Below are positions 27,476-51,342 of a DNA stretch of 64,000 nucleotides, piece after piece. The notes beneath the pieces are model-generated. The model had not been told where the DNA came from, searched no databases, and saw only the letters and a program-made list of their open reading frames with translations. The position numbers were made by a program, and so were the translations under genes. Position 1 is the first letter of the stretch. Every line of letters begins with the position of its first letter. Source of the stretch: Asterochloris sp. CNOR1 (lineage: Eukaryota; Chlorophyta; Trebouxiophyceae; Trebouxiales; Trebouxiaceae); assembly GCA_963969365.1 (NCBI GenBank), contig OZ017747.1, forward strand, positions 1,736,001 through 1,800,000, given 5' to 3'.

Positions 27476-30400
27476 ATGAACTTGGCCTGGAGAGTCACGT
27501 GGGCAGCTACTCTCGCAGTGCTTTACCTGATGCCAGCTCAGGCATCTCAGAGCGAAGACTGTGAGTGCAGTTCCCGCATGCCTTGTCAAGCAGCACTGAG
27601 GCTGATGCCAGCTGGTGCATGAACAGGTGCACTCAGATGGCGTCGCTTGGTCTTGGTCGCACGTGGCTCTTGACACGTCACCTCTCGTGCCTTGCAGACA
27701 CTTGCCTGTCTGGCCTGGGAGCAGGCATTGGGGACCCTCAGGGCAAGTTGACAGGCTGGAAGCCTCCAAGCAACCCTGTGTGCGCAGCCACATTTGCACC
27801 ACTGGGCGGGCTCACAGGCTACACATCAACAGCCACAGGGGTGACATGCAGTTCGAGTGGTCTGGTCACAGCAATGTAAGTGCAATGCTGAGGCAGCACT
27901 GGCAATGCACTGCTTGTCACAGGCATAGCAGCGCACATCACTGTGCTCACACGGCTGAGGCAGCAGCAATCCCGCTGATTGCCATCGTCTCACCAGAGCA
28001 GCCTGAGGCATGGGTGAGGCAGCACTGACTGCTGGCTCCATGTCAGGCTCGGCACCATCCCTCGTGTGCCTCGGGACCTTGTTTGCCTCAGCAACTGCAG
28101 TGCCAGCCAGGTGGTTGCCCGCCTGCTTGGCACTGGCATGCGACTGCAGCAGCAGGCGGCTTGCTGCTTGCCTCTGTCCAGCTACACTCTTGAACTGAGG
28201 AGTTAGTGCTCCTGCCTTCTGCTTGCCAAGCTTGACGCCCCTCCCTCCAGTGGCTCTCAGCCCTGATGGACTTCAGCTGCAGAGCCGGCTCTGGGTCATG
28301 TTGGACTCCAGCTGCACAGCCGTCTGGCGCATTGTTGGCATCTCAGGACTGCAAGAGACCTCCCTGCCATTGCTGCCTGCAGTGCTGTGAATGGCCTTGG
28401 GCTGACAGGTACCATCTCCCCCAGCATCTCATCCTGCACTTCCATGACCACCTTGTGAGTCTGGCAAGCAGATTTGCCTGCCAATCTGCATAGCTCTGGA
28501 CGACTGCTGCCCCACGGCTGGTGATGTTGTCCAGCAAGAGTATCTACATGGCTGCATTGCATGCCATGCCTTGCAGCTGGTGCTTGCTGACGTTGATGTG
28601 TGACTCTGGTTGCCTGCTTTGCAGCGACATACACAGCAATGTCCTGGTGGGATCACTGCCTGCCGGTCTGTCTTCGTCAACAGGCATCACATCCTTGTGA
28701 GTCCCTGTCTTGGCATGCTTGCTGATGATTGACTTGAAGCAACGAGCCAGTCCTTGTGGGTTTGCTGCGGCATCTGCAGTCCTTTTACAGCTCCGGCATG
28801 CTTGATGCTGATTACTTCAGTGTCCCCCTTCAGCAATGTGGCACAAAACTCAGCGATGTGTGGGGCAAACCCCTTCACACCTGCCTCGGTACTCGACTCC
28901 ACAGGCACAGCCATTGGGACCACATGCGCACCGTAAGTCAGGCTGTGCCACAACGCCCTACTTCCTTGTTGCTTCTGACGCAGCGGCCTCCTGAACAAGC
29001 ACACTGGAGATGCCCCTGCCTGCCAGCCTGCCCCATGCACCCCCTGAGCTGCCTTGAGCACCTTCAGATCCTCACAGTCGATGCTGCTTATTGCTGGCCC
29101 AGTGTCTGACCCCTGCTGCCCTGCAGTCCGCCCCCACCTCCGAGTCCTCCACCACCTCCTCCAAGGCAGGCAGTAACTTTGCACACGCTATGCTGAACAC
29201 TAGATGTCGTTCAGTTGAGCTGTGCTGGCCTTGATTCTCAATTCCCACACCTGCAGTTGATGCTGCAGTGCGTTTGCAGCCTGAGCCTGCTGCTTTCCTC
29301 TCTGCAGCCCGCCATCGCCAAGCCCACCTCCTCCCCAGTGCTGATTGCCATGCTGAGCTGTCACTCACTGCCATCTGCTCCCCGCAGGCTGTCTAATACC
29401 TGAGGCCTGCTGCTATCTCGAGCAGTCTAGTTGCTGCATTGCATGCTGCCTACGTTTGCGGCTGTTCATGAGCTGAAGCGCCTGCCTGCAGTCCGCCGCC
29501 TCCTCCAAGTCCGCCCCCACCTCCAAGCCCTCCGCCACCACCAAGGCGAGAGTGTTTGTGACTGCAGTGCCGAGCTGATGAAGCAGTAGCTTTGGCTCAA
29601 ATACTTTGCTCGCTATGTCCACAGTGCTGTTTGATTGCCCACTCTTGCAGGCATAGCACGTGCTGGCATGCCATTTGCACTCTGACCCTTGGCACTCTCT
29701 GCCTGCAGTCCACCACCGCCGAGTCCACCTCCTCCAAGGTGCTCATCGCTGCACACTGGATTGCGTTCGCTGTCACTTGCTCCTCACGCTCAGTCTGATG
29801 TTGCTTGAGGGCATGCAGCTGCTTCAATCATATACTGCCTGCCCTGCCCTGAAGCCCCTTCAAGTTCATGTGCTGCCCTGGTGTGTTTGCTTGCAGTTGG
29901 TATGATTGCGTACCCCAACTCAGAGATGAGGAAGACAGGCAAAGTCTGCACTGACTGCTAGTGATGCTTATCAGGATCCAATGCCGCCTGCAGTCCTCCA
30001 CCGCCTCCCAGCCCTCCGCCACCTCCAGATCCTCCACCGCCACCAAGGCAGGCGCAGTGTTTGCGTCTGCCCTTTGCTACGCTGTACTTTATGAATCGCA
30101 GAGAATTTGCCTGCATGACAGCTCACAAGGTTACCTGCTCACCTATGGCAGACTTGATTCCTGCCCAACAACTGCGGTGCAGATTTTGTGCGCCCAGTTG
30201 CCGGCATTCGACCCTGTGCTGCCTGCAGTACATGCTCATCTTTCCCCACTGCCTGTGCACAGCTGCCTGAACACATGCAGATGAGTCTCTTTGGTCTCTC
30301 TAAACACCACACCTGGCCGCCTGCAGCCCGCCCCCACCTCCAAGCCCTCCGCCGCCACCAAGGCAAGTTGCTGCCTGCAGCAGCGAGCCGATGAAGCATT

Positions 30401-33400
30401 TGCTGTGGCTCAACTGAAAGTTGCTGTTGGGTTCACGGTGCTGTTTGGCTGCCAGATGCTGCAGGTGCTATTGCTCACATCTGTATGGCTGGACATCCCC
30501 AGTCTGAGTGAAAAGCACGTTTTGCACTCTGCCTTGTCAGGGTCCAGGCTGCTTGCAGGCCTCCGCCGCCTCCTAGCCCTCCGCCGCCTCCAAGTCCTCC
30601 ACCGCCACCAAGGCAGGCACAGTTTATGCCACAGCTCTTTGCTATGCTGTGCTATGTGAATTGCCTGCTTCAGCTTGACAGCTCTTAAGGGTGCCTGCTC
30701 ACCCTTGGCACACTGGAGCCTAACAAGTGCCTGCAGTGCACTTCTCTAAGCCCAGCTGCCTCTATTCCATCCTGTGCTGCCTGCAGTCCATGCTCATGGT
30801 TCCCCGTTGCCTGTGCACAGCCACCTGAACACATGCAGATGAGTCTCTTAATCTGTATTAACATTACACCTGGCCGCCTGCAGCCCGCCCCCACCTCCAA
30901 GCCCTCCGCCGCCACCAAGGCAAGTTGCTGCCTGCAGCAGCGAGCCTATGAAGCATTCGCTGTGGCTCAACTGAAAGTTGCTTTTGTGCTCACAGTGCTG
31001 TTTGGCTGCCAGATGCTGCAGGTGCTATGTATGCTGCCGTGCTCCAGCACCCTGACCCTGTTAGTTGCTGCCTGCAGTCCACCACCGCCAAGTCCACCTC
31101 CTCCAAGGTGCTAGTCGCTGCACATTGGATTGCGTTCACTGTCACTTGCTTCCCACACTCTGTCTGATGTTGCTGGTGGCATGCTGCCTCCTGCTCTCGT
31201 CGCTGCACTTCATGCTGCCAGTGCTGACTGCTGTCCTTATAATGGCACGTTGACGTTGTCCGCCGCTGCCCGGCTTGCGTCTGCTTGATGCCTTGGCCTG
31301 CCTGCAGTCCGCCTCCGCCTCCAAGTCCTCCTCCACCTGAAAGTCCCCCCCCGCCACCAAGGCAAGCTCATTTTCTGTCTGCGTCTGCCTTCCTCTGATG
31401 TGACCTGTATCCAACTGTATGCTGTCACAAGTGCTACCCAGCGCCTGCAGTGCATCCCTACGCTGCCTGTTGCTGTGCCAAGCTGTCTGAGCAGCCACTT
31501 CCAGCGCTTGAGGATATCTGACTGACTTCATGTTGCAAAGTTACTGCCTAGCCTGTCCCGAGCCCCCTTCAATTCTTTTACCGTCATGTTGTGCTTGCTC
31601 ACATCTGCATGGCTGGACATCCCAGTCTGAGTGACAAGCATATTTTGCACTCTGCTAGAGTTCCACAGGTCCAGGCTGCTTGCAGGCCTCCGCCGCCTCC
31701 TAGCCCTCTGCCGCCTCCTAGCCCTCCGCCGCCTCCAAGTCCTCCACCACCTGAAAGCCCCCCACCACCACCAAGGCAAGCTCATTTTCTGTCTGCGTCT
31801 GCCTTCCTCTGATGTGACCTGTATCCAACTGTATGCTGTCACAAGTGCTACCCAGCGCCTGCAGTGCATCCCTACGCTGCCTGTTGCTGTGCCAAGCTGT
31901 CTGAGCAGCCACTTCCAGCGCTTGAGGATATCTGACTGACTTCATGTTGCAAAGTTACTGCCTACCCTGTCCCGAGCCCCCTTCAATTCTTTTACCGTCA
32001 TGTTGTGCTTGCTCACATCTGCATGGCTGGACATCCCAGTCTGAGTGACAAGCATATTTTGCACTCTGCTAGAGTTCCACAGGTCCAGGCTGCTTGCAGG
32101 CCTCCGCCGCCTCCTAGCCCTCTGCCGCCTCCTAGCCCTCCGCCGCCTCCAAGTCCTCCACCACCTGAAAGCCCCCCACCACCACCAAGGCAAGCTCAGT
32201 TGCTGTCAACGTCTGCCTGCTCCTGATGTAGCATGTATCCACTCCAATGTGCTGCCACAAGTGCCACCTAGCGCCTGCAGTGCATGCTGACGCTGCCCTT
32301 TGCTGTGCCAAGCTGTTTAAGCAGTATCTGCTGCTCACTTGCTGCTGCTGATGCTGCCCACAGTAATGCTTGGCTGCAAGAATGAATTGGCAGCCATTGC
32401 TATCTGCCTCCTAAATGCTTGCCTGCTGCCTGCAATCCGCCACCCAGTCCACCGCCACCATAGTACTGCTGCTTGTCCTGCACTGACATTTCTTATGTCC
32501 CTGTGCTGCCTGCTATGCTTGCTTACTGTTTGCATGTTTGTATTGTATGCTCGTTGTTTGCATGGTTGTATGCACATGCCTAGGTCACACTTCCACTGAC
32601 TGCTTGTGCTCCTCAGCCAACTCAAACATTGCCTGCAGGCCGCCGCCGCCAAGCTCGCCGCCCCCAAGGTGCTGCTGCTTGCCCCGTACAGGATAGTGTA
32701 GTCAAGGTTTTGTGCTGCCCTGTCGTGCTGGCTTATGTTGCGTAACGCAACATGCACCTGTCCACCCATATGCAAAGTCTTGCACTGACTGCCAGTGTTG
32801 CTGAGCTGACTCAATTGCTGGCTGCAGCCTACCGCCTCCCAGTCCTCCGCCGCCTCCAAGTCCTCCGCCGCCTCCAAGTCCTCCGCCGCCACCAAGGCAA
32901 GCACAGTTATTGTTCAGTATGCTCGCCGCTGCATTGCGTCTTGTGGAGCATTACCAGGTCCACAGCGAATGATGCTGCCCAGTCCCAAAGTTGGCTGCCT
33001 GGACTGCCAATTGGTGAGTGGCCCACATCCTGAGGACCAGTCCTGCGGCTTGCAGTTTGCCAAAAAGCCCGCCACCACTGAGGTGCACAGCCTATGCAAG
33101 CCGTTTGGATGCCCATGGTTTTGAAGTGTGCCTGCAGTCCTGCACAGTGCCTGGCTGAGCCTGCTCTGGCTGCTGCGACCTGCATACAGTGACATCTGCT
33201 GCCTGTAGTATACTTCCAATTAGCACCAGCATGCCTGCTGACCTTCTGCTTGACATGATGACATTCCAAGTCACTGACCCGTGCCTGCAGTCCACCGCCG
33301 CCACCAAGTCCACTCCCACCTGAAAGTCCCCCGCCAGCAGTCAGGTAGGCACAATGCTTCCACTGCACCAAGCCCAAAGCATCACCCTCTGCCTGCCTGT

Positions 33401-36400
33401 CTTATTGCCGATTGCCATTTTTGGCTGCGTGAAGCCAGCATAGACCAGGGATCAGCAAGACATGTTGGTTACTGCAAAGGCAAGCATACCGCTATTCAAT
33501 CTTGCTGGCCCTGCACTGAGCTCTGTCAAGCACCATGCCACCTGCCTGCACCACCTGGAGATGTTCCTCAGCGACGGGCTGAGCTCCAAAGCACCACACA
33601 TGGCTCAATAATGTGCTGAGCTGTCCCTTGGTCGCAATGTGCTGTGCTGTGTCTGCAGTCCCAGCCCGCCACCACCTGAGAGCCTGCCACTACCTCCAAG
33701 GTGTGTGATCCCTGCTTAAATATGCTGCCTGGCATAGACACTGAACCTTTCAGGGCAGCATCCTGCCATATGTCATTGCCTAACTTGGAGCTGGCATCTT
33801 GATGCAATGTACACCACAGTGTCCCCTGAAGGCTACCCTGCTGGTCTCCTTGGTTCCTGTTCATGCGCTCCAGCAATTGCCTTGCAGTCCACCGCCGCCA
33901 GCCAGCACCGCGACACCCCCAACCTCCACAGAGCCGCCCAGCTCGAGTTCCACAGAGTTGCCCAGCCCAACTTCCACGGAGCCACCCAGCACGGTGACAC
34001 CCACGACAAGCAGCACGGTGGCGCCTACCACGCCCACAGAGGCGCCTGCTATGCTGCCCCCCAGCAGCACCACAGGGGAGCCTTCATCAGCAGCTCCCAG
34101 CCCAACCACAGGTGAGCCTTCAACAGCGTCACCCAGCTCATCTACAGAGCAGCCCGCCACCGCTCCGCCCAGCACTGCGACCAATGAGCCCACCACGGCT
34201 CCTCCCAGCACCACCACAGCGGAGCCCAAATCGGCGCCACCCAGCACTACCACAGAAGCACCCAGCACAGCTTCGCCCACCACAGACTTGGCATCCACTT
34301 CAGCTGCGCCAAGAACCACCACAGCTCCGCCCACCACAGCTCCGCCCACCACAGCTCAGGATTTGACTCCAGCTGCACCAAGCACCTCCGCAGGGGAGCC
34401 CGCCGCACCTGCACCTGTCCTTGTACCCGCTGCACAGCCAGGAACGGCTCCATCCGGCTTTGCAACTGCTCCCCCCAACACCACAACTGAGGAGCCCAGC
34501 ACAGCCTTACCCAGCACCTCAGCTCCTCCTGCTAGCACAACCAGGCAGCCCACCACCATTGTGGCAACCAGCACAACAGCTCGTCCCAGCAGCACAGCAC
34601 AAAGTGAGCATGGCCTAGCATAGCACCCTGACCCTGTCCAAGGTGCAAAACTCGAACCAATTCGGTTCCTTTGCGTAAACAGTATTACACTGACCATCTG
34701 CTGCCTCTGCAGCTGCAGCCCCTGTTACGACACAGGCGCCAAGCCCAACCCCAACCCGAGGGCCCAGCGTGGTTCTCAATGGGCCAGCCAGCATCACAGT
34801 CCAACAAGGCACCACATACAGCAACCCAGGAGCCATGGCAGTGGACTCGGCTGGCAATGTCCTGAACGTTACTGCCACCATCCAAGGTGAGGCCTCTGAG
34901 CGCTGCAGCACCTGGCTGCCCCACCTGCAAAGTTCAATCAGGGCTGCTGCTGAAAGTGCAGGCAACAGGGCGTTCAGCACTGCCCAGCCCACCCCTCCAA
35001 ATGGTGCTACCTCCCCGCAGCCCTTCGTCTTCATTTACACAGCCACTGATGCCCTTGGGCAGACTGCCAGTGTGAACAGGACAGTCACAGTACTGGATCC
35101 CTGCACAGCGCCCGAGAGCTGGTGCAGCAACCCGGGTGAGTGTGATATGCCTCCAGTCTATTTGATACCATGCAAAACATGTACGTCCAGGGTTTCATGC
35201 TTATCTGTAGGCGCCTGCTCCAAGTTTGGCATCTGTCTGCCAAGTACCTCCTCCAACACGGCGCCAAATCTGACCCTGGACACCAGCATCCTGGGGCTGA
35301 CAGTCCAGGTCAACCAGAGCAGCACGTATGCTGCCTGCAGCTCCGGTATCAAGCCATCCCTTGCTGCACCTTGCGAGCCTGGGGGCAGTGCAACGGACAC
35401 ACAGGACGGCAACTTGACAGCCAGCATTCTGGCATGCCCACCCTCCCGCTGCTTATCTACCTACTGCACAGGTAAGGCCTTCTTCAAACATGCAAGCTGC
35501 CCCTGCTGCTGTGAACAGTGGCCGCCTCAGTCACCTCTGAGGTGCCAATTGCATCTCCTGTACATACAGGCCAGGAGTTCAGCCAAATTGGTCTGGCAAA
35601 CTGTGCCATCAACACCAGCCAGCCTGTGGGCACACTCATCAGCATCAGCTTCCTGGTCTTTGACCACGGCACCCCTGTCCTGAATGCGAGCGCTCAGCGC
35701 ACCTTGGTCATTGGATCCCCTTGTGCAACAGGTGATATGCTTAGCGGAAATCTGCTCTGGCGGCCCCAGCAGCCAGTCACACTGACAGGATTGCCCTTGC
35801 GCAGGGCAGTACCTCTGCAGTGGCAAGTGCTACCCGGTGACCTGCTCTGTGGCAGCATCACTGGGGCTCATCTCCTCACGTCCTGTCATCAGCCTGTCCA
35901 CCACAGCTACCCAATTGCTTGGGTCAGGGTCGGCCATCAACTTTGCCTACGGTTCTGCAGCCCCACTCTCTCTGTCACCATGCCGCTCTTCTGGTAGGCC
36001 ACACCCTGTGCCCCTGCATGTACTCACCTGCACTGACTGAACATGTCCATGTTCCTTTCATGCAGCATCCCAGGCCAGCTGTGCAGTTACTGCTTATGAC
36101 AAGCAAGATGGTGACATATCTGCTTCTGTAACAGTGGTCCCCACCGTGCGGTGCCTAGACGCCACCAGTGGCACATGCGTCTCATGCTCCCTGACCTATC
36201 TGCAAGCAGGCCAGTGCTTTCCAGCAAGGTGGGCTGCACACTCCCTCGCCTTTGCCCAGCAGTGACGTTGCTCAGTGATGTTGCTCAGGCCCATGCAGCT
36301 GTGACCAACGCTGGCGGCTCCTCTGTGCAGGTACCAGCTCACATATTCGGTCACAGACTCCTCGGGCACAGCAGCTGTGCCCCTGAGCCTGAACGTAAAC

Positions 36401-39400
36401 ATCTATGAGTCCGGGCAGGTACAGGCCACCCTTCTGCTGATGAGCCAGGCCCCTAATGCATCCGCAGCGGCAGCATGGGCAGCCGCCATACCCAACACAA
36501 GCTACAGCGGCAATGCTGCTCTGCGCTCAGCGCTGGCCGGCTCCCTGTCAGCATGGCTGGCCGGGGTGGGGCCCACGACTGCAGCGGCAGAGGCAGCCAC
36601 AACTGTCTTTGACAGCGTGGACGCATTTGCATACTCTGCGGTCCAGCAGAACAATGTGGTCCTGCTCAATGCAACCCTTTTGCAGAATATCAGCTCATAT
36701 ATCATGAGCAACAGCTCTAACAGCTCATCCAGTGTCACCAGCGGCAGCAACTTTGCTGTGCTGGTGGCTGTACAAGTCATTGTCAACTCCACGGCCTACG
36801 CCACCACCGTCACTAGCAGCAGCTCTCGCCGGCGGGAGCTGCTAGTGCAAGCAGAGCCTGGCACTGAATTCACGCTGGCAGCCACACACAGCAGGGCACT
36901 GATCTCAGCCGCTGAGGGTGCTGGCAGGCTTCAACGCAGGCAACTTCAAGCAGACACCAGCAGCATTGTCTTTGCTCTGGAGCTGAAACTTCAACTGCTG
37001 ATCAACGCCGTCCAGAGCGTGTCAAGCTGCAATGCAAGTGCCATCACCTCCCTCTACTATGGGGGAGTGGCCCCTCTCTTCCTGGCTGTCAGCTGCAGCG
37101 TTGGCAACAGCGCTGCTCAGTCCAGCAGTAACTTGGCAGCCCTGAATGCCTATCTGTTGCAAGCAGCTTCGGTGACCAGCAACCAGCTGCCGCCCTATCA
37201 GGTGCTACAGGTCTCAGGCACGCCGGTTGCAGCAACCATCACCCCATTTGTGGATACAGCGCTTGCCGAGCAGGCAGCAGTGATAGGAGCAATCCAGCTA
37301 CTTGCCCAGCAGAGTGTCAGCGGGAGTGGTGTTGTCACAGCTCTGGCTGTGGCAGTGGTGTCTCAGGCTCAAGGGGCAGCGGCCTCGCGACTGGTCACAC
37401 TGCAGGACTTAGCAGCCCTATCAGCTGCAAGCTCAGCTTCAGAGGACGCCTCAATCAGCAACGTGCAGGCTGCCTTTAACCTCATCTCTAGTGCTGCCAC
37501 GAATTATTCTTTTAGTTCTGTTTCGGTGAGTATAAATAGGATCTGCTCAGAGTGTGTCATCTGTAGCAAGTACTGATGTGATTCCTATGGCTTTGTGCAC
37601 TGCTTCACTAAGTTGCCCTTTTGTATGCAGGCAACTGAGCAGTCCATGCGGAATTCATTGGTCAGCTTGCAGTCGCAGGTCCAGAGCTTACAAGCTGCTA
37701 CACTTTCAGCTGCACTGGCTGCACAGTCGAGCTTCCCTTGCGCAAGGATCAATGGCGAGGGGCAATACTACTTCCAGGTCGAGACACTACCTAGCACTGC
37801 CACGCATTTTGTTGGCCTACACTCAGCATGGTGACCTGCTTGCAGGTCACTGATAGCGACAGCTCCAGTGCAACCACATCAGCAGTTGCCAGCAAATCTG
37901 CAGAAAAGGCAGTGCCTTGGCTTGAGCGTCTGTGGTACGGCTATGACGTGTACAGCACCAGGGACCTGCGCCCTGCTGCAGCTGTCACAGAGCAATACAG
38001 GGAACGCTTCCTAGGCTCAAAAGGCAGCAACCGGCTGCTGACAGGCCTGTTTTTACAGCAGGTACGAAACCTTGGCACCTGGCACTGCCAGAACAATAGG
38101 TACACATGATTGGAAGTGAGCACTCTAACTATATTATCCACCTTGAGACATCTGCTATTTCCCTTGCAGGAACGCTTTGTGCTGACATGCCATGGCCACT
38201 TTGGAAGGCTAGGTTTTGCATGCCAGGACCAGCAATTTGCCTACCTCAGTCAATGTAAGGCAACCGCTGGTGCTCATGTCTGCTGCCATCTCATGCCTGC
38301 CTGCTGGCCATCACACAAGATATGTTTGATGCAGCCTCTGCAAACAGGACAGGGTCCACAGCCAACAGCCCTTTTGGCTACGACCCTGTGTTTGGCACCT
38401 ACTCCAGTCTGTGGAATCTTCAGCTTGTTGGGCAGGAGGGGTCATTTTACAATCTTACAACAGTGAGGGTGCTTTCAATTTGCTGCTTTTGGAGCAAGCT
38501 TTTGCATGCACAAGCTTTTGCATGAGTGCGGCAGCTCTCCAAACTGCAGGGTTCTGCAGAAACAGATTCCTCTGGCAATCCATTTGGCTTCATGGATGAG
38601 ACTTTGCCTGGTGCCATTGTCAACTTCCCTGCATTGTTCACAACACAGATGTCAGCCAATCGCAGTGCAGACGTGTTGCAATACCTCTTGGTGAGTAAGA
38701 ATGTGGCCCTGCACTCACAATGACATTTTGTGCAGACTTAGTCGAGCATACCCCAAATTCTGTTTGCCATTTTGCAGGATGGCAAGTACTTGACTAATGG
38801 GGTACAGGAGGTACAACTCAAGATGGTGGCGTTCAATGGCGATGCACGGCTTTTTGGTTACTTTGCGCTGACATTCACCTGGCATCAAGATGGCTCCATC
38901 ACCAGCAGCGTCTCCTTCTCTGCGCTTCAAGTCGTGCCCTACAGTGCTGTGCACACAGAGTAAGCCTTAAGCTGCCTCCCAGGCTAGCTGAGGGTGTGAT
39001 GCATTATTCTGCTTTGCATCTGCAACAAGTCTGGCCTTCTGCGATGCGCACACACTCCCGCATCTTGATGCGGCGACATCTTTGCCTATGTTAAAAGCCT
39101 GGCAATGCAGGTGGCGCCACATCATCACAGACATGTTCCTGGTGGTTTTGGCAGCATGTTTCACAGCATTCACGGTCATGAAACTGCAAAGTGCTCAACG
39201 GGATGTGGGCGGATCATTTTGGAAGGCGATGAAGGAACACCCCCAGCTAGCCAATGACTGGGCCATCTGCATCGCGCAGTGGACAGGTGACCTGTGTGTG
39301 ATGTTGTTGATCTGGGAGCAAAAGGTATATCCTGTTGCTCATGCATCTGTCTCTTGCGTGCAGGCCTGGCCTTGTATGTGATATTCGCTGTGCGTCAGTG

Positions 39401-42400
39401 CATCAAGCTGCAGCCACAGCCGTACTATGAGGTATATGACTCAGATGAATACGCCCAAGCCAGATTCTTCTTGATTGACCGCATGGAAACTCCACCACCC
39501 CCTCCAGTTGAGCCGGAGCCTCCTCCACCGCCTCCACTCGCCGAGAGTCCTCCCTTGCCACCACCAATGCTGGCATCTCCACCCCCACCACCTCTGAGCA
39601 GCTCTCCACCTCTGAGCAGCTCTCCAGGGGCCTCCCGCAAGCTGCAATCTTTGTTAGATGGCCATTGGTCAGCTTCCCCAGTAGCTCCATGGCCAGATTC
39701 TGGTCTGGACAGATTGTGGCCCTGCTCGCCACTCAGCCATGCAGAGGGTGCTGGTAATGAACATCTAGTGGGGCACACACGGCACCTGCTGATCACCGAC
39801 ACCAACACAGCCACACCATCCACAGAGCCAGGCGGCCCAGATCGTTGGGAGTTGCCAAAGAACTCTACAGGTGATCTACTGTGTTGGTGTCCTCGTGAGC
39901 TGACTTTGCACTCCTTCCAGGCATGACACTGACCTCACATGCTGGCAGCAAAGGAACCCACCACTGAGTTGGCTGGAATTATGTTACAGGCTTCCAGCAA
40001 TACCTTCATCTTAGTGAGACCATCGACAACCTTTACAGGCTGCACAACTGGTTCATATTCTTCCATTCCAGCATTTTGGTGCAACTTGTTATCCGTTGGC
40101 TGCAACAATGGTGAGTAGCTTCTTCTGTACTGTTGTTGCTTTTGGTCAGCAATCAGCCTTACACAATGACAGTGACGTGCAGGGACTTTCAGCCCCGCCT
40201 TGGAGTGGTGGCCAGAACTCTGGCAAGGGCCTTGCCAGATCTGTTCCACATGATGCTACTGATCTGTGTCTTGCTTCTTTTCATTCCCTATCTACTCTGC
40301 ATCATGTTTGGGGAGACCACAGCCCAGCTATGTACCTTACGAGGCGAGCATGCATTGTGGGACTCCCAGCATGGCAGAGATTGCATCATGCACAGTCCAA
40401 GTTTCTGCAATCGTGCATGAGTGGTAGAGGTGGCTGCAGGTTCGTCAGTGACGTTCTTCAGTTTGCTCATCATTGGCGATTTCATGGGGACAAGGGACGA
40501 TTTGCATGCTCAGCAAGATGCCCTCATATTTTCCTGGACAGATAGGGTTGCTCAGGTGAGCTGAGTGTTTGTGTCCTTTGTGCTGCTAGTGCCTGCAGCA
40601 TGTCACAGGAGCTAGCCTACTGTTTTTGGATTCAACATGCAGTCTCTGTACCTGTGGGGCTTTCCTTTCTTCATCAAAGCCTGCTTCCTTGGCATCATCA
40701 TTGGCATCATCATCGACACCTTTCACGGGTAGGGGCTCGGCATGCAGTGCTGTCACTGTCATGCTGGAGGTGCTCACCTTCTTCACGCAACATGCAGGCA
40801 AGAGGTCAGGGCAAGGCGGCTGGCCAAGGAGGCCAAGGCTTCATTAGCTGTGGTGGAGAACCTTTACTACCTAGGGCTGGACACATGGCGCATCTTCGTT
40901 AGGTCTGCCTGGTTACTGCCAATCTCAGGCTGTGCCTGGCCAAGACTCTCACCCTGAGTTGCCCTTGTGCAGTCGCAAGCCATCTAGCCTCCGCATCATG
41001 CAGCTGGTCATACGACTGCGCCATCAGAAGCTTCAGACCAAGGGCATCCGCAGCTCAATGCTATTGATGAGGTAAAAAAAGTTCAATCTGCTGAGGAGTT
41101 ACCCTGTGACTCTTTCATGAGCATTCTTTCAAAGTGGGCCACTAGGCACTAGCCATTGCTTGTCTAGTGAAGTGCTTTGAGCGCTGTGTTGCATCACACT
41201 CCTGATTGTCTTTTGCAGGATTTTTGGTCAGAAGCTGCAAGGGTCTAATGAGTCGGGGGAGAGCAACCCCGCTAATGCCTGGCTTGCGGCACTACAGCAA
41301 GCCAAGGCCAGCACGGGCATGTCACGTGATGCCACACGTGGTCTGCTGACGGCCCTGCACCAGGGCGTTATCCAGCAAGAGGGGATGGAGGGGGATCTGT
41401 TGGCTGGCGAACAAGTGTTGCGTTTTGAAATTGATGAGGCAGTGCGCCTGCTTGTCAGCTTGGCGCATGCGCCTGAGGCTCTCTTTGGCTACAAGAGCAC
41501 TCGCTGGTAAGCAAAGTGTCGAGGAATTCATGTCCAGGCCCGCACCTGAGTTCCCGCAATGCAGGGCTGTTAGGCCCCCATCCTGGTGCCAAAGATGCAT
41601 ATCGTGCTCTTCATCATGCCCTGTTGGTCAAGTTGCAAAAATCTTGCTCTGCTTGTGGGCTGAGAGAGCCATCTTCTCCCAAACATTACAGGTATCGTAC
41701 TTGTGGCTGGCTTCTGGAGAGGTTGCAAGGCTGCCTCAGTGGCAACAGTCAACACGGCTGGTGGGTCCTGTGGGATGACAGCTTGCACACAGAAGCCCTC
41801 ATAGACTGGGCAGAGAAGCTTCTTGATGACATGGGGCGCAGGGCTCAGAAGCGACTCAGCAAGGTGCGCCTGCATTAATGCTTGCCAATACTCAGCATCC
41901 TTTGAGTCTGCACATTGTCTGCTTGTGTCTTGTGATTCAGGGCCTGAACAATATGCTGATCAGGCCAGCCGCTGGATGGAACCCAGCCGTACGAGTGTGG
42001 CATCCCCTGCACTGACGTACATGTTGCCAAAGAAGGATGCAAGTTGACTTGGCACATGATCTGCTTGCGCCAGCTGTGCTTGTGCTCAATCATGCCAAAC
42101 TGTCTACAGATGCGTGGCATTGAGGACTACGCCAACAGGCACCGGCGGCACACTTTAACAGCATTGGCAGCAAATGCGCAGCAGCAGGTTGCTGCCAAGC
42201 TGGTTCGTCAAACAGCCAGGCGCAGTCAGTCCATTTTTGGCATGGCAGGGCGGTCCAGGAGCACCCTCCTGATAGACCTACCTGGCAGTGAAGCCATGGA
42301 GGGCAGTGTGCAGCCATTGGCAGCCAACTTTGGAGACAAGCTCGCAGGCTTTCAAGGGCAAGTCAGCCCCAGGTGCCGACCAACATGCTTTGATGCATGC

Positions 42401-45400
42401 CTCAGGATTTGGCTTTGTAAGAGCTATGACAATGTCTAGCATTCAGGTTGCTAAGTGTGTGCAATGTGCAGGGCCAGATGTGTGAAAACCTGCAGCATGC
42501 CTGGCATCCTACTTGCAGACGCTTTCTGGGTGCGCCACAGGCTTGTGTGCAACTCTGCAGGGAACAAGATGCCGGGCCTGAGCCGCGAGCCCTCTCAACA
42601 ACAATGTGAGCACACTGGAATTGCACAGTTGCAGGTGGTGACATGCTTGCAGCACTCTGCAATGTGAGCGCCGGCCACAGGCTTTCACCTGCTGCTTGAA
42701 AGTGCAGGCGGAGGGCACGGCGCAAGAGCAACCTGGCAGATCTCCTGGAAAGTCAAGGACTGGGTGTGGATGCTGAGCAGGCCAGCGACCTGTCTAATAC
42801 TATGTGAGTTCATGAAGTCTTCCAAGCAGCAGCGTCGATGTGCCAAGGCTTTGCCTTGCGTGTGTGTGGCGCCACCATTACAGGGGCTGAGGAGCAAGAG
42901 AATGAGTTGTCTTTATGCAGGCGAATGACAAGGCGCAAGAGCAACCTTGCAGATCTGATTGACGCTCAGAGCCAGCCAGCAGGATCACTCATGAGGGAGA
43001 CAATGTAAGCGCTGCACCTCATGGGGTGCACGCAGATGCTGTGATGTGGTCATGCACTCCAGATCTTCATGGGCAAAGCGCCTCATTGCGCAGCTGTATC
43101 AGGCCTCCAATCTGTTGCAGGCGGAAGGCCAGACGCAACAGCAACATTGCAGATTTGCTGCAGAATGCAGTGCTGCCAGAAATGGCAGAGGACTCGTCAC
43201 TGGCCAGCTCACTGTGAGTTGGGCAAGCAGTCTGCTTTGCTCCTCTTGCAGAAGTCATCTGTACCAACATCTCAAGCACTCCATGGCCACGTGTGCATCT
43301 GTTGCACTATCAAGGTCTGTTGCACACATTGTGCAGGCACAGGCATCGTTGCAGAAGCAGTCTTGGCGATGCCCTGGGCGTTGAGGGTGCATTTCAGGCT
43401 GAGCAAAGTTCTGCTAGGTGAGTTCAGTGTGTACCTTGCATAACTTGTGGTTGGTCCTTGAGTGAGAACCCCTTGCTGCCAGAAAACTCTGTGCTCACTT
43501 GCCAAGCCCGCCGATCGAGCAACTTGACTGCTGTGGCTGGTCTGCAGCATCTCAAGGAGGAAGAGCAATTTGGCTGATGTCTTAGAAAGCCTGCAGAAGG
43601 GGCCTTCACTTGCTCCCCAAACAAGGTATTGCCGGCAACTGAGTGTCACTGTGGCGCACAAGAATTTGCCTTTCTTCCCAGCCTGGCTGCACCTACTGCT
43701 AACTTACTGCTGCAATTGCAGATCCACAATGCACAGCAGCAACGTGATAGACAGGATGGAGGAGATGCAACCACTGCAAGTTTCTGGGCAAGGGTCTGCC
43801 TTGCTGCCTTAGACACCATGCTCACTCTGACACGAGGGGCAGACTTCAGACTGCACTTGCTATCTAAGCACCATGTATTGGTTGTGTCTGGGACTCCACC
43901 TCAAAGAGTGCCCTCTGCTGCAGCATCACCCGGCGTAAAAGCAATCTGGCGGATATGTTTGAGACAATGCAGGGACCTCTTGTGGACGTGAGAAGCAGCC
44001 ACAGGTGGTACATCGTTGCATCAGCAATGCATGCAGAGACAACCTCCACAATGCAAGTCTTCAGTCAAGGGACTGCTTGCCTGCAGTTTCACACGGCACA
44101 AAAGCAATCTAGCAGATATGATGGAAGCCTTGCAGGGCCCGCCTGTGGCGTCGAGAAGCAGTCACAGGTACTGCACCGTTATACCAGCTACAGATGCTGA
44201 GGCAAGTGCAACCATGCTTTCCTTGAGTCATGAGGCGGCCTGTCTGCAGCTTTTCAAGGCGCAAGAGCAATCTGGCAGACATGATGGAGGCCATGCAGGA
44301 GCCACCTGCACTGGCACCAGCCAGGTCCGTCTAAAATGTGCTTGCCTCTGGCAGGCAGGAATGTTGCCCCTGTCTGAGCTGCTCTGCCGCTTACGTGCTT
44401 GCTGGGTCAATGCCATGGACTTGCCAGCTATGACTGCCATTTTGAAGAGCTGCAGCCTGAGGAGGGGCCGTGGCAGCTTGGAGGATGCAGCTGCGCTGGA
44501 CATGATGGGCCCAGGGCGCTCACAGCAGCTGCATGTTGGCCCAGATGAGGACAGCACATCACCCAGGCGCCGTGCAGGGTAGGCTAGCAGCTCCATGCCC
44601 TGACACTGCTTGACAGATCTGCTGCCTGCGCCAAGCACATGAGTCCACAGAGGGTGACATGAGTCCCTTACCTCTTCTCCCTCCCTGCTGCAGGACTGTG
44701 CGTGCACGCCGCAAAAGCAACCTGGTTGATGTGTTGGCTGCGCTGCAACAGCGCCCCAATGAGGCTGATATTGAGAGGTGGGACGTGACCCTGTCCTTTG
44801 ACACCTTAAAATCAGCCCTGCACTGCCAGGGGTGGATCAGTGGGTCCTGCTCACTATGCATGCAGCTTGATGAGGAGCGGCAGTGGAGCAGCCAGCATGA
44901 GGGACCTTGGTGAGGCGCCAGAGACACTCAGGGAGCAGCCCAGAAGTCCTTCCAGGTATGTTTGGCAGCCCTGCCGGCTGGCAGCTTGCATGTCATTCCC
45001 ACAGTCATACAGACTTGTCAGCCTTGCCCCTGTCTGATGCGCCTGACAGCTTTTGTTTCTTACATTGGGTTAGGCAGCGATATCAATCGGCTTTGCTCCC
45101 CGCTGATGTTTCATTAGATGGTACAAGGTCCTCTAGCCAGCCTATGATGCATTTATCAGGAGTATCCTGCATCTGTAAGATGTCTAGCCTGAGACGGGCA
45201 ACTGGCATGCAGGGGCAAGCAGCGCCGTAAGTCAGCTCTGCTTCCTTCCAGCAATGGTTTGTTTGACAACCCCGTCTCCACAGCTGGCCGAGGGTGAGTG
45301 CTCAACGCCATCTAGCTTGTTGTGGTACCCATGCCTGCACAAGTGTCATGGCTGCAATTATGTGGCCGCATCTGACCCTTGCACCACCAGTCTGAAAGGA

Positions 45401-48400
45401 GGTGCATTCTTGAATGCAGTGAAATTGAAGGCAAGCTGGCAGGCGATACTGCCCGCACCAGGTATGGTCCCAGGTGATTGATGCTCGGCACTTGACAAGA
45501 CAAGATCATGTGTCACTTTGATGCAGCTTGACAAGGAATGACAGCAGCCTTCCCCACAGTGTGCAGAGGACTATTAGCAGGTGGGCATGAGAAGTGGACG
45601 CTGCTGTTGTACCCTCCCCCATCACAAGCTGCTGTGGCCTGAGGCAAAACGTTTCCAAAGCACCAGGACAGTCACAGGTTCCGGTAATCTGCAGGCTGAA
45701 TAAGACCAAGAGCTCTGCAGCAAGCCTGCTTGAAGTGCTGGATGACATAGAAGCAGAGGCATCTGCTCAGCCCAGGTGAAAACTTGGGGCTGTTGTGGGC
45801 ATCATCTGCTGTATCTTTACCAGGCAGACAGCTGCTTTTGCAATGCCTGACTGTAGACAATTGCACTGATATGCAGCCATGACCACCATAAGAGCACCAG
45901 AATAAGTTTTGAGCCTGACAGGTCAGCAAACTGTCTGGGCTGACCACTGCTGGCATCTACCCTTACATTGCTGAGCGCGATGTTGTTATGTCAGGTGCCC
46001 CTGCTTGCAGGCAGGATAGTTCAGCTGGCGAGCCTTCTCACCCTGGACCCCTCCCAGAAGTCCTCACGCAACCAACGCGCAGGTCAGCCCCAGCATTAGC
46101 CTGCAGCAATGATCAGACGTTGCAGCTGCCTCAGGGTCGTTGGTCGCTCCTGCAGTCTGTTGCTGCGCCAGCAGAACTCCACGCGCGAGCTGCTCGCTGG
46201 TGCCAGGGCAGCTGTCTCTGGAGGTGATGTACCGCCAGGGACTGCTCACAGGTGGGGCCCTCTGTCATTTTGTCCTAGCGACCTCCGTCACCTCTGTGGG
46301 AGGCTGCTCTACATCCTTGCACCTTCATGTCCACCTTGCCTGCCCTCTGGATCTGATGCCATGTGCTAAGCAGTACAGGTGCTGCAGTGCCGGACCACAT
46401 GAATGGCTGACTTCTGGCCAGCCTGAAGTCCTGCCCAGAAGCCAGCCAGAACCGCAGGCCGTGCTGCAAAGCGCGGCTGCAAAGCTGCAGCAGCAGCTGG
46501 CAGAGGGGCAGCTTGACAGGCTCAGCCCTGCAAAACGCAGGGCTGGGCCCGGAGGGGCGGCAGACCGGGCTGCTGCCGCAGTGCACTTTAGCTCAGAAGG
46601 AGAGGCCGGCATGCCAGCAAAGCGCACTGCAGGGCCTCGCAGGCAGCTGCGTGGCCTCGCCTCCCTCACCTCTATCGCCAAGCGCGGGCCCCGTGCTGGC
46701 AGCGCAAACCCCAGCCACGTGGGCAACCCTAAGCCTGGCCAGCTGCAGACGGATGGCGGTCACGTCCGCCTTGCCGCTGGTCTGGAGGCTGGCATCTCTG
46801 CAGACCAAAGTGGGAGCATTGGGAAGGAGCCTGTGCAGCCGGCAGCAAGCCCTGCAGCTGCAGCTGCCTTAACAGCCTTTTCAGGCCCACGCGCGGAGGC
46901 CTGGACGACGGGGCGCATGACGGCGCCCAGGCGGCTCCCGCCACTGAACCACTCCACGCAGGGCACAGCCGGCCCCAACACCCAGCTGAGCGGCGACTGG
47001 GTGAGCTGCCTCTGCGCAGCATGCACTGGCTCATGACCACTCACAGCCAAGCTTGGCAGGTGGTTCGGCCTTGTGTGCAGGTGCCTTTCTCAGCAGCATA
47101 GTTGCAGGTCGCTTTGAGGAGCAGCCTGCCCATGTTTGTGGGCCCAGATGAGTCCTGTGCCGCATGACACATTTGCGTGGGAGGGCTGCTCTTCCTTGCC
47201 TTTTCACCATCACATCTGCAGCCCTGCCTGATGTCCCACAACCGCTGCCTTGCAGACAGCAGAGCAGCTGCAACATGAGCTGGACGACCCAACACACCAG
47301 CACAGGCAGCCCTCTGCTGCAGCACTGCCAGGGCTGGACATGAGCCTGGATCACCTGCAGGTGCAATGCAGATGCTGTGACTATGTCGCCGTCCCCTGGC
47401 GCTGTCATGCAGTCCGACACCAACTGTGTAGCATGGAGTCCTGCTGCTGCAGGCAGAGGTGGATAGCTGGCCCTCCAGCCATGCTGCCACCCCTGGGGCA
47501 GTGCTGCTGGCAGTGTCCAGCCCTGGGCTGCCGGGGGCATCTTCCAGGCAGGGGTCCGGCGTGGCTGAAGAGCTTGACCGCAGCTGGAGCGATGTGGTCC
47601 GGGAGGTGGAGGGTACTACTCAGCGGGTGAGCTGGCAAACAAGCTGAGGCACGGGTCCAATCCTGTCTGCAAAACACCTCACAGATAAAGGGCGCCCATC
47701 TGGCTCAGGCAACCTTCCACTTGCTGCATGTGCAGACCCACTGCAGGCCATTCTGCACTGCCGATGCTTGCCTTGCTGTCAGGCATGTATATACAGGTAG
47801 TCTGTTGTATCAGGCATGTTGTTCCTCTTGAAGAGGGGCTCCAGGTGGCTACGGATGTCTGCATGCCTCTGCCCTGCTGTGCAGGAAGCTGCGCAGGACC
47901 CTGCTGATGGACCAGAGCGCCTCATCAGCAGCTGGAGTGACTTCATGGCCGCCATGGTAAAGGGTGAACCTGCCCAGCCTCAAGCAGCAGCACCTGCTGC
48001 TGCCTCAGGCAGGGGCCTAAGCAGGACAGCCAGTCTGACGAGCCTGAGCTCGGCAGCAGGCGGCTCTGCTGGGCGTCAGCAGCCAGCACCCCAGATGCTC
48101 AGTGCCCCTGCCACGCCGCGGGGGCAGGCTCGCTCTCCCTGGTCACACAGGACCTCCCGCTATGGGCCCTCTCAGGTGGTACCTGCCCCCTTGGAAGACG
48201 GGCAGCACCCAGACGGCAGCAAACCTCTGCTGGCAGCACAGCAGGGGCAGCACTCTCCTCAGCAGACCCCCAGCCTGGCAAAGTCAATTTTTTCTCGGGT
48301 AGCTGTCATAGGGAACAGGCGCCTCCTGGCTGAGCAGCAGCAACGGAGGGCTGCCGTCTCTGCAGCTGGTCAGGAGGAGCCGAAGGCAGCCCCAGTGTGG

Positions 48401-49752
48401 GCAACCACGCGGGTAGTGCCTTTCCAGCCGCAATCGGGGGGTCCAGAGCGCCCAGGAAGCCCAACAGAAGCACCCAGCAGAGGCATGGCCGCAGCAACAG
48501 GCAGTGAGGGTGGTCATGGGCTGGGCAGCGCCACCCTCACACACAGAGGCAGCACGTGAGGCGGCCTGCTGTGCACTGCACTGCTGCGGGGCTCCTGCCG
48601 AAGTCCTGCGTGCTGCAAGCTGCTTGGGTAGCACCTGTCGCTCCCTAAATCAGACTGCAGCTGCCTCGGAGGTGAACTGGCTAATGCAGAGGCATTCTTG
48701 GCTTACATGATGCAACCCTCAGCATGACTGATGCTTGCGGTCATGCCCCGCGCAGGCCACTCAAGTCAGCGCTCCATCGCGGTGGGAGCAGCATTGGGGG
48801 CCTGGAGGCACTGCTTTCACAGTCCACCCGCCAGAGCTTCAGCCTCCAGTGGGAAGACAGTGACCCCAGCCCTGCAGACGGGGACCATCTGCCTCGCAGC
48901 ACCCTGGGCAGACAGTCCAGCTCTGCCCTGGCCAGCAGCCTGCGCAGCAACAGCTCCGGCAGTGGGACTCTACGTCCCCTGCGCTCGCCTAGAGGCAGGC
49001 GTGCCTCAGTGCTGCACTTTGCAGATGACACTACCGAGCCAGCAGCTGCCAGGTTAGCTGCGAGTTGTTGAGCCAGCAGGCTGTGCCCAGCATCTCACAG
49101 CCAGCTGCACCTGTCATGCAATGGTGCCCCTGGATGGGCTCGGGGCGTGGACACAAGCTTGCACTCCTTCAATGCACAGAGGCTGGCGGCCATGGGTCCA
49201 GGCGCTGGCAGCCACTGAATCGCGCAGCAGACTGCTGCCAGTCCACAGGCCATGCTTTGCACATGCCAAACTTGAGTGTCACGGCTTGGTGCAGGAATGA
49301 GCGGCCCTCACAGACATGATGGGGGGTTTGCTGCCTGCAGGCACAGCTTTGATGCTGCACGGGAGCCAGCTGGCGATGAGGCAGCCATGCCAGAGCCAGT
49401 GATGACTGGCCCGAGCACCCTTCTCATTGGCGCCGACGGCACGATGGTCACCACGGAGGGGGCTGCCCTCACAGACATTGGCCCTCAGTCTGAGGTGCAG
49501 TCCTTTGAGGAGCGTGACAGGTTCCTGGCCCGCTTCCTGAAGAAGAGCCTGACGCGGTTGGCGACCCTTGGTTCCAGCAAGGAACCCATCAGGCAGAAGA
49601 CCTACACTCAGTTCATTCAGCAGGCCACCACCCTGGTGGCTGCCTTCACCCAGCAGCTGGCCCACTTTGAGGCCGTGCAACGTGACTTCGAAGACGCTCT
49701 GGCTGATATGTTGCTAGAGTCACAGGCAATCCTGGATGACCTGGATGCTTAG
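27476..49752 (+). CDS. LRR / extensin / mucin ectodomain fused to a polycystin channel with repeated phospho-motif tail
   Basis: One gene of about 22 kb, supported by continuous exon phases from 27476 to at least 41500 and by phase-2 exons through the tail. Exons in order: signal peptide 27476-27560 (WAATLAVLYLMPAQA); LRR N-cap 27698-27875 (LTGWKPPSNP, GVTCSSSGLV); 24-residue LRR exons 28383-28454 and 28625-28696; LRR end 28780-28932 (NSAMCGANPF); proline-rich array 29127-33700; mucin 33888-34603; Ig-like/Cys-rich modules 34713-36229; large Asn/Ser-rich exon 36331-37525; polycystin extracellular domain 37846-38959 (LTNGVQEVQLKMVAFNGDAR); transmembrane exons 39111-40735 (DNLYRLHNWFIFF, FQPRLGVVARTLARALPDL, FSLLIIGDFMG, FFIKACFLGIIIGIIIDTFH); cytosolic tail 40800-49752. 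A PKD1-like layout suggests a wall-coupled mechanosensitive cation channel (inference). One LRR exon near 28047-28110 and several tail boundaries are unsettled. Confidence 0.8.
31362..32189 (+). repeat. 414-bp tandem duplication of one intron-exon cassette
   Basis: 31362-31775 and 31776-32189 are nearly identical (one difference noticed: ctagcc versus ctaccc). Each unit contains a whole intron and the following 90-bp proline-rich exon. A third, more diverged intron copy begins at 32190. Confidence 0.95.
32433..32462 (+). pseudogene. Inactivated proline-rich micro-exon
   Basis: The block ccgccacccagtccaccgcc resembles the live exons, but the acceptor reads tgcaat instead of tgcagt and the donor region reads CCATAG instead of CCAAGG. 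It looks like a cassette lost by splice-site mutation. Confidence 0.7.
33888..34603 (+). repeat. Thr/Ser/Pro-rich mucin-like exon
   Basis: A single 716-bp exon of the LRR-polycystin gene encodes about 238 residues with imperfect repeats of the type P-S-[ST]-T-x-E-P (for example TAPPSTTTAEPKSAPPSTTT). The composition predicts dense O-glycosylation and an extended stalk between the proline-rich part and the Ig-like modules. The antisense reading frame (Val/Gly repeats) is a mirror of this composition. Confidence 0.9.
42708..46250 (+). repeat. Cassette-exon array encoding R-R-K-S-N-L-A-D repeats
   Basis: Clear copies: 42708-42803 (RRKSNLADLLES), 42921-43004 (RRKSNLADLIDA), 43121-43213 (RRNSNIADLLQN), 43337-43417 (RCRSSLGDALGV), 43548-43625 (RRKSNLADVLES), 43722-43793 (HSSNVIDRMEE), 43924-44004 (RRKSNLADMFET), 44087-44167 (RHKSNLADMMEA), 44250-44324 (RRKSNLADMMEA), 44456-44578 (RGRGSLEDAAAL), 44694-44777 (RRKSNLVDVLAA). 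Weaker members follow at about 44867, 45527, 45694 (KTKSSAASLLEVLDD), 46011 and 46155 (RQQNSTRELLAG). Each exon is 24-43 codons, phase 2 at both ends, and most begin Ser/Arg and end Arg. R-R-x-S is the consensus for PKA/PKG/CaMK-like basophilic kinases. The array lies in the predicted cytosolic tail of the channel. Confidence 0.88.
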
Positions 49753-50012: not shown

Positions 50013-51342
50013 ATGCAAACCCAACAGGAGGGAGAAGCATGTCACAGAGAAGACTTCGACACTGTCAGGCTGCAACTTCCCACCGTGAAAGCAAACATCT
50101 GTGGCCAGGTGCTGCTCTGCAATTGGGCAGATGAAGGGCAGCGCCAGCAGGCAGTCCTGGAGTTGCAAAAATTTGCTGCCTGCCTCAAAACAGACCGGCC
50201 CATCCATGGCTTGTTCCAGCCCCTCCATCTATGTGGGGCGCTGGCACAGTGGCCTGCAGTCCAGCGCTGGAGTCTCAGCTACCTGGCGGAGCACTATCCT
50301 GACCACAAGTGAGTAGCTCCCAGCCCACAACGAGGCTCTGTGTGGCCCACAACTACCTCTTGCCGGCTGAGCTGCAGCACTGCCATGCAGGTGCTTTGTG
50401 AGGGTGGCCCCAAATCAAAACTTCAAGTATGTGGATCCCAAGCTGCTCAAGCTCTACCTCAAACTGAGGTCGCCCCGCAGCCTGCCCAGCATGCTGCTGC
50501 CAATGGCCTGCCAGGAGTTTGCTCAGCGCATGCAAAAGGACTGCAATCTCCCGAATCTCGTCTACAAGCAGGCAGAATTTTACTACATGCAGGTGAGCTT
50601 CCGCAAGGCAAGCTTGCTGCCTCAGCCTGCTGCATTCATGCTTGGCTGGGCAGACCTGTCCAGCTGTCTGAGAGCTTGGGCTGCTTGCTGCAGGGTCCCA
50701 CACGTCTATCCACTGCCATGAAGGCAGACATGAGGCTCACTGAGGCCCCCTTCTCCACTGTTCTTGACCCTAGTGAGTAGCTCTTGCATATGAACATGCC
50801 CGGCGGGCATCATCAACCTCTCAGTGGGCAGCCCCCTGCTAATATGGTAGGCTTGGGACATGCATGGCTGCATGCTCAGCCACTCCAACCATCCCCTGCT
50901 TGCTGCAGGTCTGCCAGGCCAGCCGCTGAGCCCCACGGTGGCCCCCCACCTCTGGGTCAGCCCTGAGGGCGCCGTGTCGCCTCTGCACTACGACTGCAGC
51001 CCCAGCTTCCTTGTGCAGCTCCATGGCTCCAAGAGAATGCTGCTGTGGCCACCGCAGCAGCTGTCTGCTCTGTCGCCATACCCAAACTTCCACATTCTGC
51101 GCCGGCGGGCCCGTGTGGACCCCTGCCAGCCAGACTACAAGAAGTTTCCGGCCTTTCAGCACACTGCAGCAATAGAGGTCACTCTCCATGCAGGGGATGT
51201 CCTGTTCTTCCCTGCCTACTGGGCGCACTACACTGAATCGTTGACGCTGAGCATCAGCCTGACCTGTAGGTTTGACACAAAACGGCGTAAACAACAGTGG
51301 TCCAGGAACTACTTCATGACCGGCAGCATCAAGAAGACTTGA
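50013..51342 (+). CDS. JmjC / cupin_8 domain Fe(II)/2-oxoglutarate oxygenase
   Basis: Four phase-consistent exons: 50013-50308, 50391-50592, 50694-50772, 50909-51342; 336 residues, which is typical for stand-alone cupin_8 proteins. The C-terminal half holds the family signature: LWVSPEGAVSPLHYDCS supplies the metal ligands His and Asp (H-x-D), the substrate pocket region follows with FLVQLHGSKRMLLWPP, and the distal His is in FFPAYWAHYTESL. Relatives include HIF-asparaginyl hydroxylase-like proteins, TYW5 and JMJD5/7-type enzymes that hydroxylate proteins or tRNA; the substrate here cannot be assigned. ATG 50013 is the first in-frame ATG after the upstream frame opens. The gene ends only 46 bp before the stop of the convergent LRR gene. 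Confidence 0.88.

Follow-up and report, generated by a model that had tools for sequence, protein, structure and literature searches.

A repeated R-R-x-S-N-L-x-D exon module in the predicted intracellular tail of a putative MST3-type polycystin of the green alga Asterochloris sp. CNOR1

Background

The closest described system to the gene analysed here is MST3 of Chlamydomonas (Cre06.g309951), which is chain X of the structure 9b4h (PMC11015965). MST3 combines a PKD2-like transmembrane domain with a huge extracellular N terminus, including Pro-rich and Ig (immunoglobulin)-like parts, and a long intracellular C terminus; it is without the S1 helix, which is supplied by the small protein SIP, and seven other S1-less, SIP-completed polycystins are named alongside it (PMC11015965). 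How an S1-less polycystin with a giant extracellular part is held or controlled from inside is described as open in the case of MST3 (PMC11015965). Here, we present the analysis of a related gene, hereafter gene A (27476..49752, plus strand), residing in a window of 64,000 bases (C2:1736001-1800000) of the Asterochloris sp. CNOR1 genome (56.4 Mb, 21 contigs), whose predicted inner tail is encoded in part by a tandem array of exons repeating the motif R-R-K-S-N-L-A-D. A sequence-only reading had placed at least eleven such exons, all symmetric in phase, at 42708..46250, and had regarded them as kinase sites that could be skipped individually without frame loss. The feature is real and unusual, while the number of exact copies was overstated.

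Gene A resembles MST3 in its PKD2-like transmembrane domain and pore with no S1 found, in its large extracellular region with 10 Pro-rich stretches and an Ig-like domain (PF16403), and in its long predicted intracellular C terminus. It differs from MST3 in having leucine-rich repeat (LRR)-like exons, which score below the cut-off, in the absence of any C-type lectin domain seen, and in the exon-encoded tail array; no array of this motif was found in the MST3 sequence. Polycystin-2 (PKD2) shares with gene A the pore and S5-S6 homology, but in PKD2 S1 is present and the N terminus is intracellular. On these sequence features, gene A would be classed as an MST3-type split polycystin.

Results

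Channel and topology

The channel part of gene A (38170..40902, plus strand), comprising a polycystin TOP-like domain, S2-S6 and the pore (LLIIGDFMG), was recognised from Pfam, PDB chain matches and hydropathy, the query for the database matches being a hand-spliced translation minus the Pro-rich loop. It matches PKD_channel (PF08016) at E 3e-10, above the cut-off, and its best solved-chain match in PDB is 9b4h_X (8,572 residues, E 2.8e-31), with human PKD2 chains also matching from E 0.0019. A single reading frame of the window reaches only 0.0034 against PKD_channel, below the cut-off, and a genome-wide search with this family (E<=0.001) lists C3, C5 and two C4 loci, the window's own exons not being among them.

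No 19-residue segment with hydropathy >1.6 that could represent S1 was found in residues 1-707 of the model, which starts at 36331, and the first hydrophobic segment (residues 708-726) lies beyond the TOP-like domain; with no S1 found, the model does not show the six helices S1-S6 of canonical PKD2. Because no S1-like segment precedes the TOP-like domain, as in MST3, the post-S6 tail (1036 residues in the model up to 47000, and continuing further) is predicted to be cytosolic, and we infer from this topology that the array lies on the cytosolic side. The alga's own PKD2-like genes appear to be those at C3:2723340 and C5:598750 (L014-L017), which have ordinary predicted tails and no such array. 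These two genes resemble the Myrmecia bisecta protein P0002.

Anatomy of the exon array

Exon models were based on 12 exons read by eye and checked, and then on a self-trained splice-site/codon predictor combined with hand curation; the predictor recovered the 12 eye-read exons and their neighbours. The resulting chain of 39 exons (36331-47000) is phase consistent with 0 stops, which bears out exon-encoded, in-register repeats in the tail of a polycystin-type channel. Within it lies the array, 20 consecutive phase 2-2 exons on the plus strand (42561..46251), a longer run of symmetric exons than first claimed; 19 of the 20 belong to the stretch originally noted, and the last ends one base past it. 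In the 12 checked array exons, acceptors end in GCAG, donors are GT, lengths are multiples of 3 and phases are 2-2. Introns inside the array span 53-257 bases. Elsewhere in the chain phases are mixed, yet the exons at 40798, 40973 and 41219 are likewise 2-2.

Eight of the 20 exons match R[RH][KN]SN[LI][AV]D, five of these being exactly RRKSNLAD, and five further copies are degenerate by eye (RCRSSLGD, MHSSNVID, RGRGSLED, RRKSALLP and RNDSSLPH), while the remaining exons carry scant or no motif. The count of at least eleven copies thus stands if degenerate ones are included, but not for the near-exact core. The six frames of the window contain the pattern R..SN[LIV][AVI]D 8 times, whereas none of 60 windows simulated from a first-order Markov model of it has the pattern, and a chance repeat was therefore rejected. 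A bacterial reading was likewise rejected, given the introns and the presence of ciliary genes in the genome.

The array follows an exon encoding RRSQSIFGMAGRSRSTLL (42110..42372), and all of its copies are read on the plus strand. Six canonical copies have a conserved counterpart in paralogue B (see below), namely RRARRKSNLADLLESQGL (42708..42803), RMTRRKSNLADLIDAQ (42921..43004), RKARRNSNIADLLQNA (43121..43213), ITRRKSNLADMFETMQ (43924..44004), FSRRKSNLADMMEAMQ (44250..44324) and TVRARRKSNLVDVLAALQ (44694..44777), the B counterpart of the last reading RRNSNLVD. Canonical copies ISRRKSNLADVLESLQ (43548..43625) and FTRHKSNLADMMEALQ (44087..44167) have no B counterpart; the latter is the most recent tandem duplicate, the exon plus intron unit of 43924..44004 recurring downstream. 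Among the degenerate copies, HRHRCRSSLGDAL (43337..43417) aligns to B over its first 37 nucleotides only, STMHSSNVIDRMEEMQ (43722..43793) has no B counterpart, and LRRGRGSLEDAAAL occupies 44456..44578. The right end of the array (44866..46251) consists of eight decayed phase 2-2 exons, starting at 44866, 45213, 45420, 45527, 45695, 45877, 46011 and 46156, some of which retain RxxS. The decay of the repeat toward the right had been proposed from the sequence and is confirmed, in support of birth and decay.

Composition of the motif

R-R-x-S had been read as a basophilic kinase consensus, and this holds: the consensus (R at -3, S at 0) is present in 8 of the 20 array exons, and the 522 residues of the array contain 16 R-x-x-S sites where 7.7 are expected, a count attained in 2 of 2000 shuffles, with no enrichment in the remaining tail (4 vs 3.7). 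On the consensus alone, phosphorylation of the array serines is plausible. Over 14 aligned A and B copies, the A copies having been chosen by motif, R-3, S0, N+1 and D+4 are invariant; because N+1 and D+4 vary no more than the serine does among these selected copies, a kinase site does not account for all that the motif conserves. In 8 of 8 copies, the stretch that follows has a hydrophobic moment above the mean of its shuffles.

Paralogues and selection on the core

The genome holds at least three paralogues of gene A, all on contig C4, with B and C on the minus and D on the plus strand (best candidates scored). The query was the large exon region of the window, off-frame and with stops as X, and it served only to locate loci; blastn coverage of gene A by the C4 paralogues is piecewise across 26925-49795.

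Paralogue B holds 13 of the 20 phase 2-2 exons, and the motif is kept in all six canonical exons that have a counterpart, so that in-register conservation, as predicted for homologues, is found in this paralogue. Among the copies of A itself, synonymous differences in the cores are near saturation (proportion of synonymous differences, pS, 0.73; nonsynonymous, pN, 0.08). We relied on the A-B comparison, because the among-copy pN/pS is biased by the picking of copies by motif, whereas the choice of copies for the A-B comparison was made on A alone. Over 48 core codons there are 10 synonymous differences and a single nonsynonymous one (pN/pS 0.03, bootstrap 0.00-0.13); helix codons have a pN/pS of 0.24 (0.07-0.69), linkers, omitting the unequal-length suffix of exon 43121, 0.55 (0.27-1.16), and the pore-S6 exons 0.08. 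By Fisher tests on difference counts, core and helix together differ from linkers (p 0.020) and from decayed exons (p 2.3e-5, with inputs of 16.3 and 57.7 for the latter rounded to 16 and 58). The decayed exons show little constraint, as in exon 44456 with 12.5 nonsynonymous vs 0.5 synonymous differences. As judged from these ratios, the A-B comparison shows the core of the good copies to be under selection, and recent duplication was rejected as the explanation of their identity. Here, exon duplication and loss operate on repeats of a short motif, the core of which is under about the same constraint as the pore (0.03 vs 0.08).

In-frame absence of the array in two paralogues

The alignment of C with A stops at A 42337 and restarts at A 45580, and D lies within one base of both points. 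A single gap of ~3,242 bases, starting inside exon 42110..42372 at ~42338, takes out exons 42561 to 45527 in C and D and brings the front part of exon 42110 directly up to the exon 45527-45580 donor, preserving phase. The number of array exons is 20 in A, 13 in B and 3-4 in C and D. In an unrooted tree, C groups with D (support 100; site patterns 181, 92 and 64). The array would be ancestral and C and D its losers, because the branch-length midpoint falls on the A branch of this tree, which has no true outgroup. Since C and D are without the array, it is not required in this channel family, and the motif represents a coding module that is constrained yet dispensable. In D (L011, C4:3829171-3830220), and partly in C, a different RxxS unit is repeated (LLLRQHSSIREL, LSLRRHSSMREP, LLLRQSSSMREL), as if RxxS sites had been restored in number once the main array was lost.

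Relatives of the array and channel

That the motif belongs to no named domain agrees with our searches, in which the 822-residue tail gave 0 Pfam families at E<=1 and 247 array residues gave 0 PDB chains at E<=10 (phmmer). Of 8000 candidates scored in the protein database none matched at E<=0.01, where the candidate cap and length limits may hide relatives and absence is not proven, and single-protein scans of viral contigs found no relatives of array or pore. In the alga's own genome the array has 7 matches, every one in A or B. The channel region matched one protein in the protein database, from Closterium (26% identity; Pro-rich words may hide relatives), and minus the Pro-rich loop one from Myrmecia bisecta (25% identity); by eye, the Closterium tail shows scattered R-R-x-S and no array, and the Myrmecia tail no such motif. 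These charophyte and trebouxiophyte hits, the numerous short introns and the ciliary genes agree with a green alga as the source. Literature text searched for the motif strings returned nothing but one unrelated paper, and no text was found joining 'Mstax' with mastigoneme. The repeat of R-R-x-S-N-L-x-D plus amphipathic helix thus has no homologue elsewhere in the searches run.

Discussion

Taken together, the data suggest that the predicted inner tail of the channel contains a functional repeated module for regulation or docking. Our preferred reading, to which we give a probability of roughly 0.45, is that the array forms a multi-site, phospho-regulated docking ladder in the tail of an MST3-type split polycystin. 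The blocks would be constitutive coding exons of a receptor-like channel with its N terminus outside and its long C terminus inside, and in each good copy a basophilic kinase site (R-R-K-S) would lead into a short amphipathic helix, beginning at a likely capping box (N-x-x-D at +1/+4) and carrying hydrophobic residues at about +2, +5, +6 and +9. Acting in parallel, the copies may form a multivalent ladder for one partner, which may be an adaptor of the axoneme or cytoskeleton or else the channel itself. How many rungs are engaged could then be set through phosphorylation of the serine immediately ahead of each helix, and rung number would translate into graded anchoring or gating; helix, phosphorylation, partner and graded output are all inferred. 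A more specific and rather speculative version is that the previously undescribed motif and helix act as a phospho-gated rung by which a receptor polycystin of the MST3 type is anchored to cytoskeleton or axoneme, that lineages tune anchoring strength by whole-exon gain and loss, and that two paralogues dropped the ladder in frame.

The A-B ratios, the RxxS enrichment in the array, the raised hydrophobic moment and the MST3 match with no S1-like segment found count in favour of phospho-regulated docking, as does the presence of ciliary genes: IFT57 has 4 matches, 3 of them above the cut-off (3 of 14 control genomes gave weak matches, none above), IFT46 has 4 of 4 matches above it, and dynein heavy chains have 23 matches, 20 above. 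Both halves of the mechanism occur in nature. The R domain of CFTR is a cytosolic channel segment in which multiple kinase sites permit tight regulation (PMC8240754). CFTR is an unrelated channel and the analogy is functional only. Its kinase sites are not known to be exon-duplicated repeats. In the kinase-inducible domain of CREB, R-R-x-S directly precedes an amphipathic helix and binding needs the phosphoserine; this domain is present in a single copy in a transcription factor, and its hydrophobic spacing differs from that of the array copies by about one residue. Several observations weigh against phospho-regulated docking. Paralogues C and D live without the array, which also matches nothing in the sequence of MST3 itself (phmmer, 247 residues, E<=10). 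The hydrophobic moment is individually notable (<5% of shuffles) in 1 of 8 copies only, and a kinase alone does not explain the constraint on N+1 and D+4.

These two fixed positions favour a purely structural docking array, in which a short helical binding motif is repeated for avidity and the serine serves capping or contact instead of phosphorylation, and the constraint on the helix positions agrees with it as well. On the other hand, the conserved R-3 (mostly also -2) together with S0 is the exact basophilic kinase pattern and RxxS survives in several decayed copies, and we rate this explanation as somewhat less probable than phospho-regulated docking. Splice-tuned dosage, in which cassette exons are skipped to set the site number, had been suggested in the sequence-only reading, and any skip would indeed keep the frame, as all 20 exons are phase 2-2. 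This is no evidence of skipping, however, because tandem exon duplication must leave symmetric phase as a by-product. Further, array donors are no weaker than the others of the gene (position weight matrix mean 5.04 vs 4.43, p 0.43, in a comparison omitting 39364-39870 and the GC-donor exon 40183-40343), and copy number varies in the genome between paralogues, so we consider such dosage control unlikely.

Still less probable is a neutral or nearly neutral by-product of exon duplication, with copies alike because young. The little constraint in the right half and the loss of the array from C and D would fit, and for the decayed exons this origin is plausible; for the eight good copies it is disfavoured by the low pN relative to pS among the motif-chosen A cores and by the A-B core ratio. 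Calmodulin or membrane-lipid binding via basic amphipathic segments is the least likely, since acidic residues within the hydrophobic segment (D+4 and E/D+7) are not typical of calmodulin targets, even though the R-R-K cluster adjoins an amphipathic stretch.

With regard to phospho-regulated docking and its alternatives, gene A supplies a compact, conserved and repeated motif, predicted to be intracellular, together with natural paralogues with and without the array. The question of control from inside is thus testable by peptides, pull-downs and exon deletion.

Further features of the locus

The model of gene A runs from a signal-like leader (MNLAWRVTW...) to a TAG stop at 49750-49752, with its exons delimited outside 28.7-33.9 kb. 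On the plus strand, two LRR-like exons (AVNGLGLTGTISPSISS... and DIHSNVLVGSLPAGLSS...) lie at 28383..28697, matching LRRNT_2 (E 0.094) and LRR_1 (E 0.28) in Pfam, both below the curated cut-off. They are followed at 29125..32900 by ten stretches of the SPPPPPSPPPPP type, resembling hydroxyproline-rich glycoproteins, which are probably a second tandem exon array, this one extracellular. Two adjacent units of ~414 bases each within this region (31327-31739 and 31741-32153) yield the same blastn rows against C4, which suggests that they were duplicated very recently. Ig-like extracellular domains occupy 34713..36228 (plus strand; PF16403, E 1.4e-10, 41.5 bits vs a cut-off of 27). The S5 exon (40183-40343) has a GC donor at 40343 (GAG|GCGAGC), the corresponding sequence being GTAAGC in B and C and GTACGC in D. 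Downstream, reading frames at 50851-51265 (plus strand) suggest, by eye only, a cupin/JmjC-like gene (HYDCSPSFLVQLHGSKRMLLWPP).

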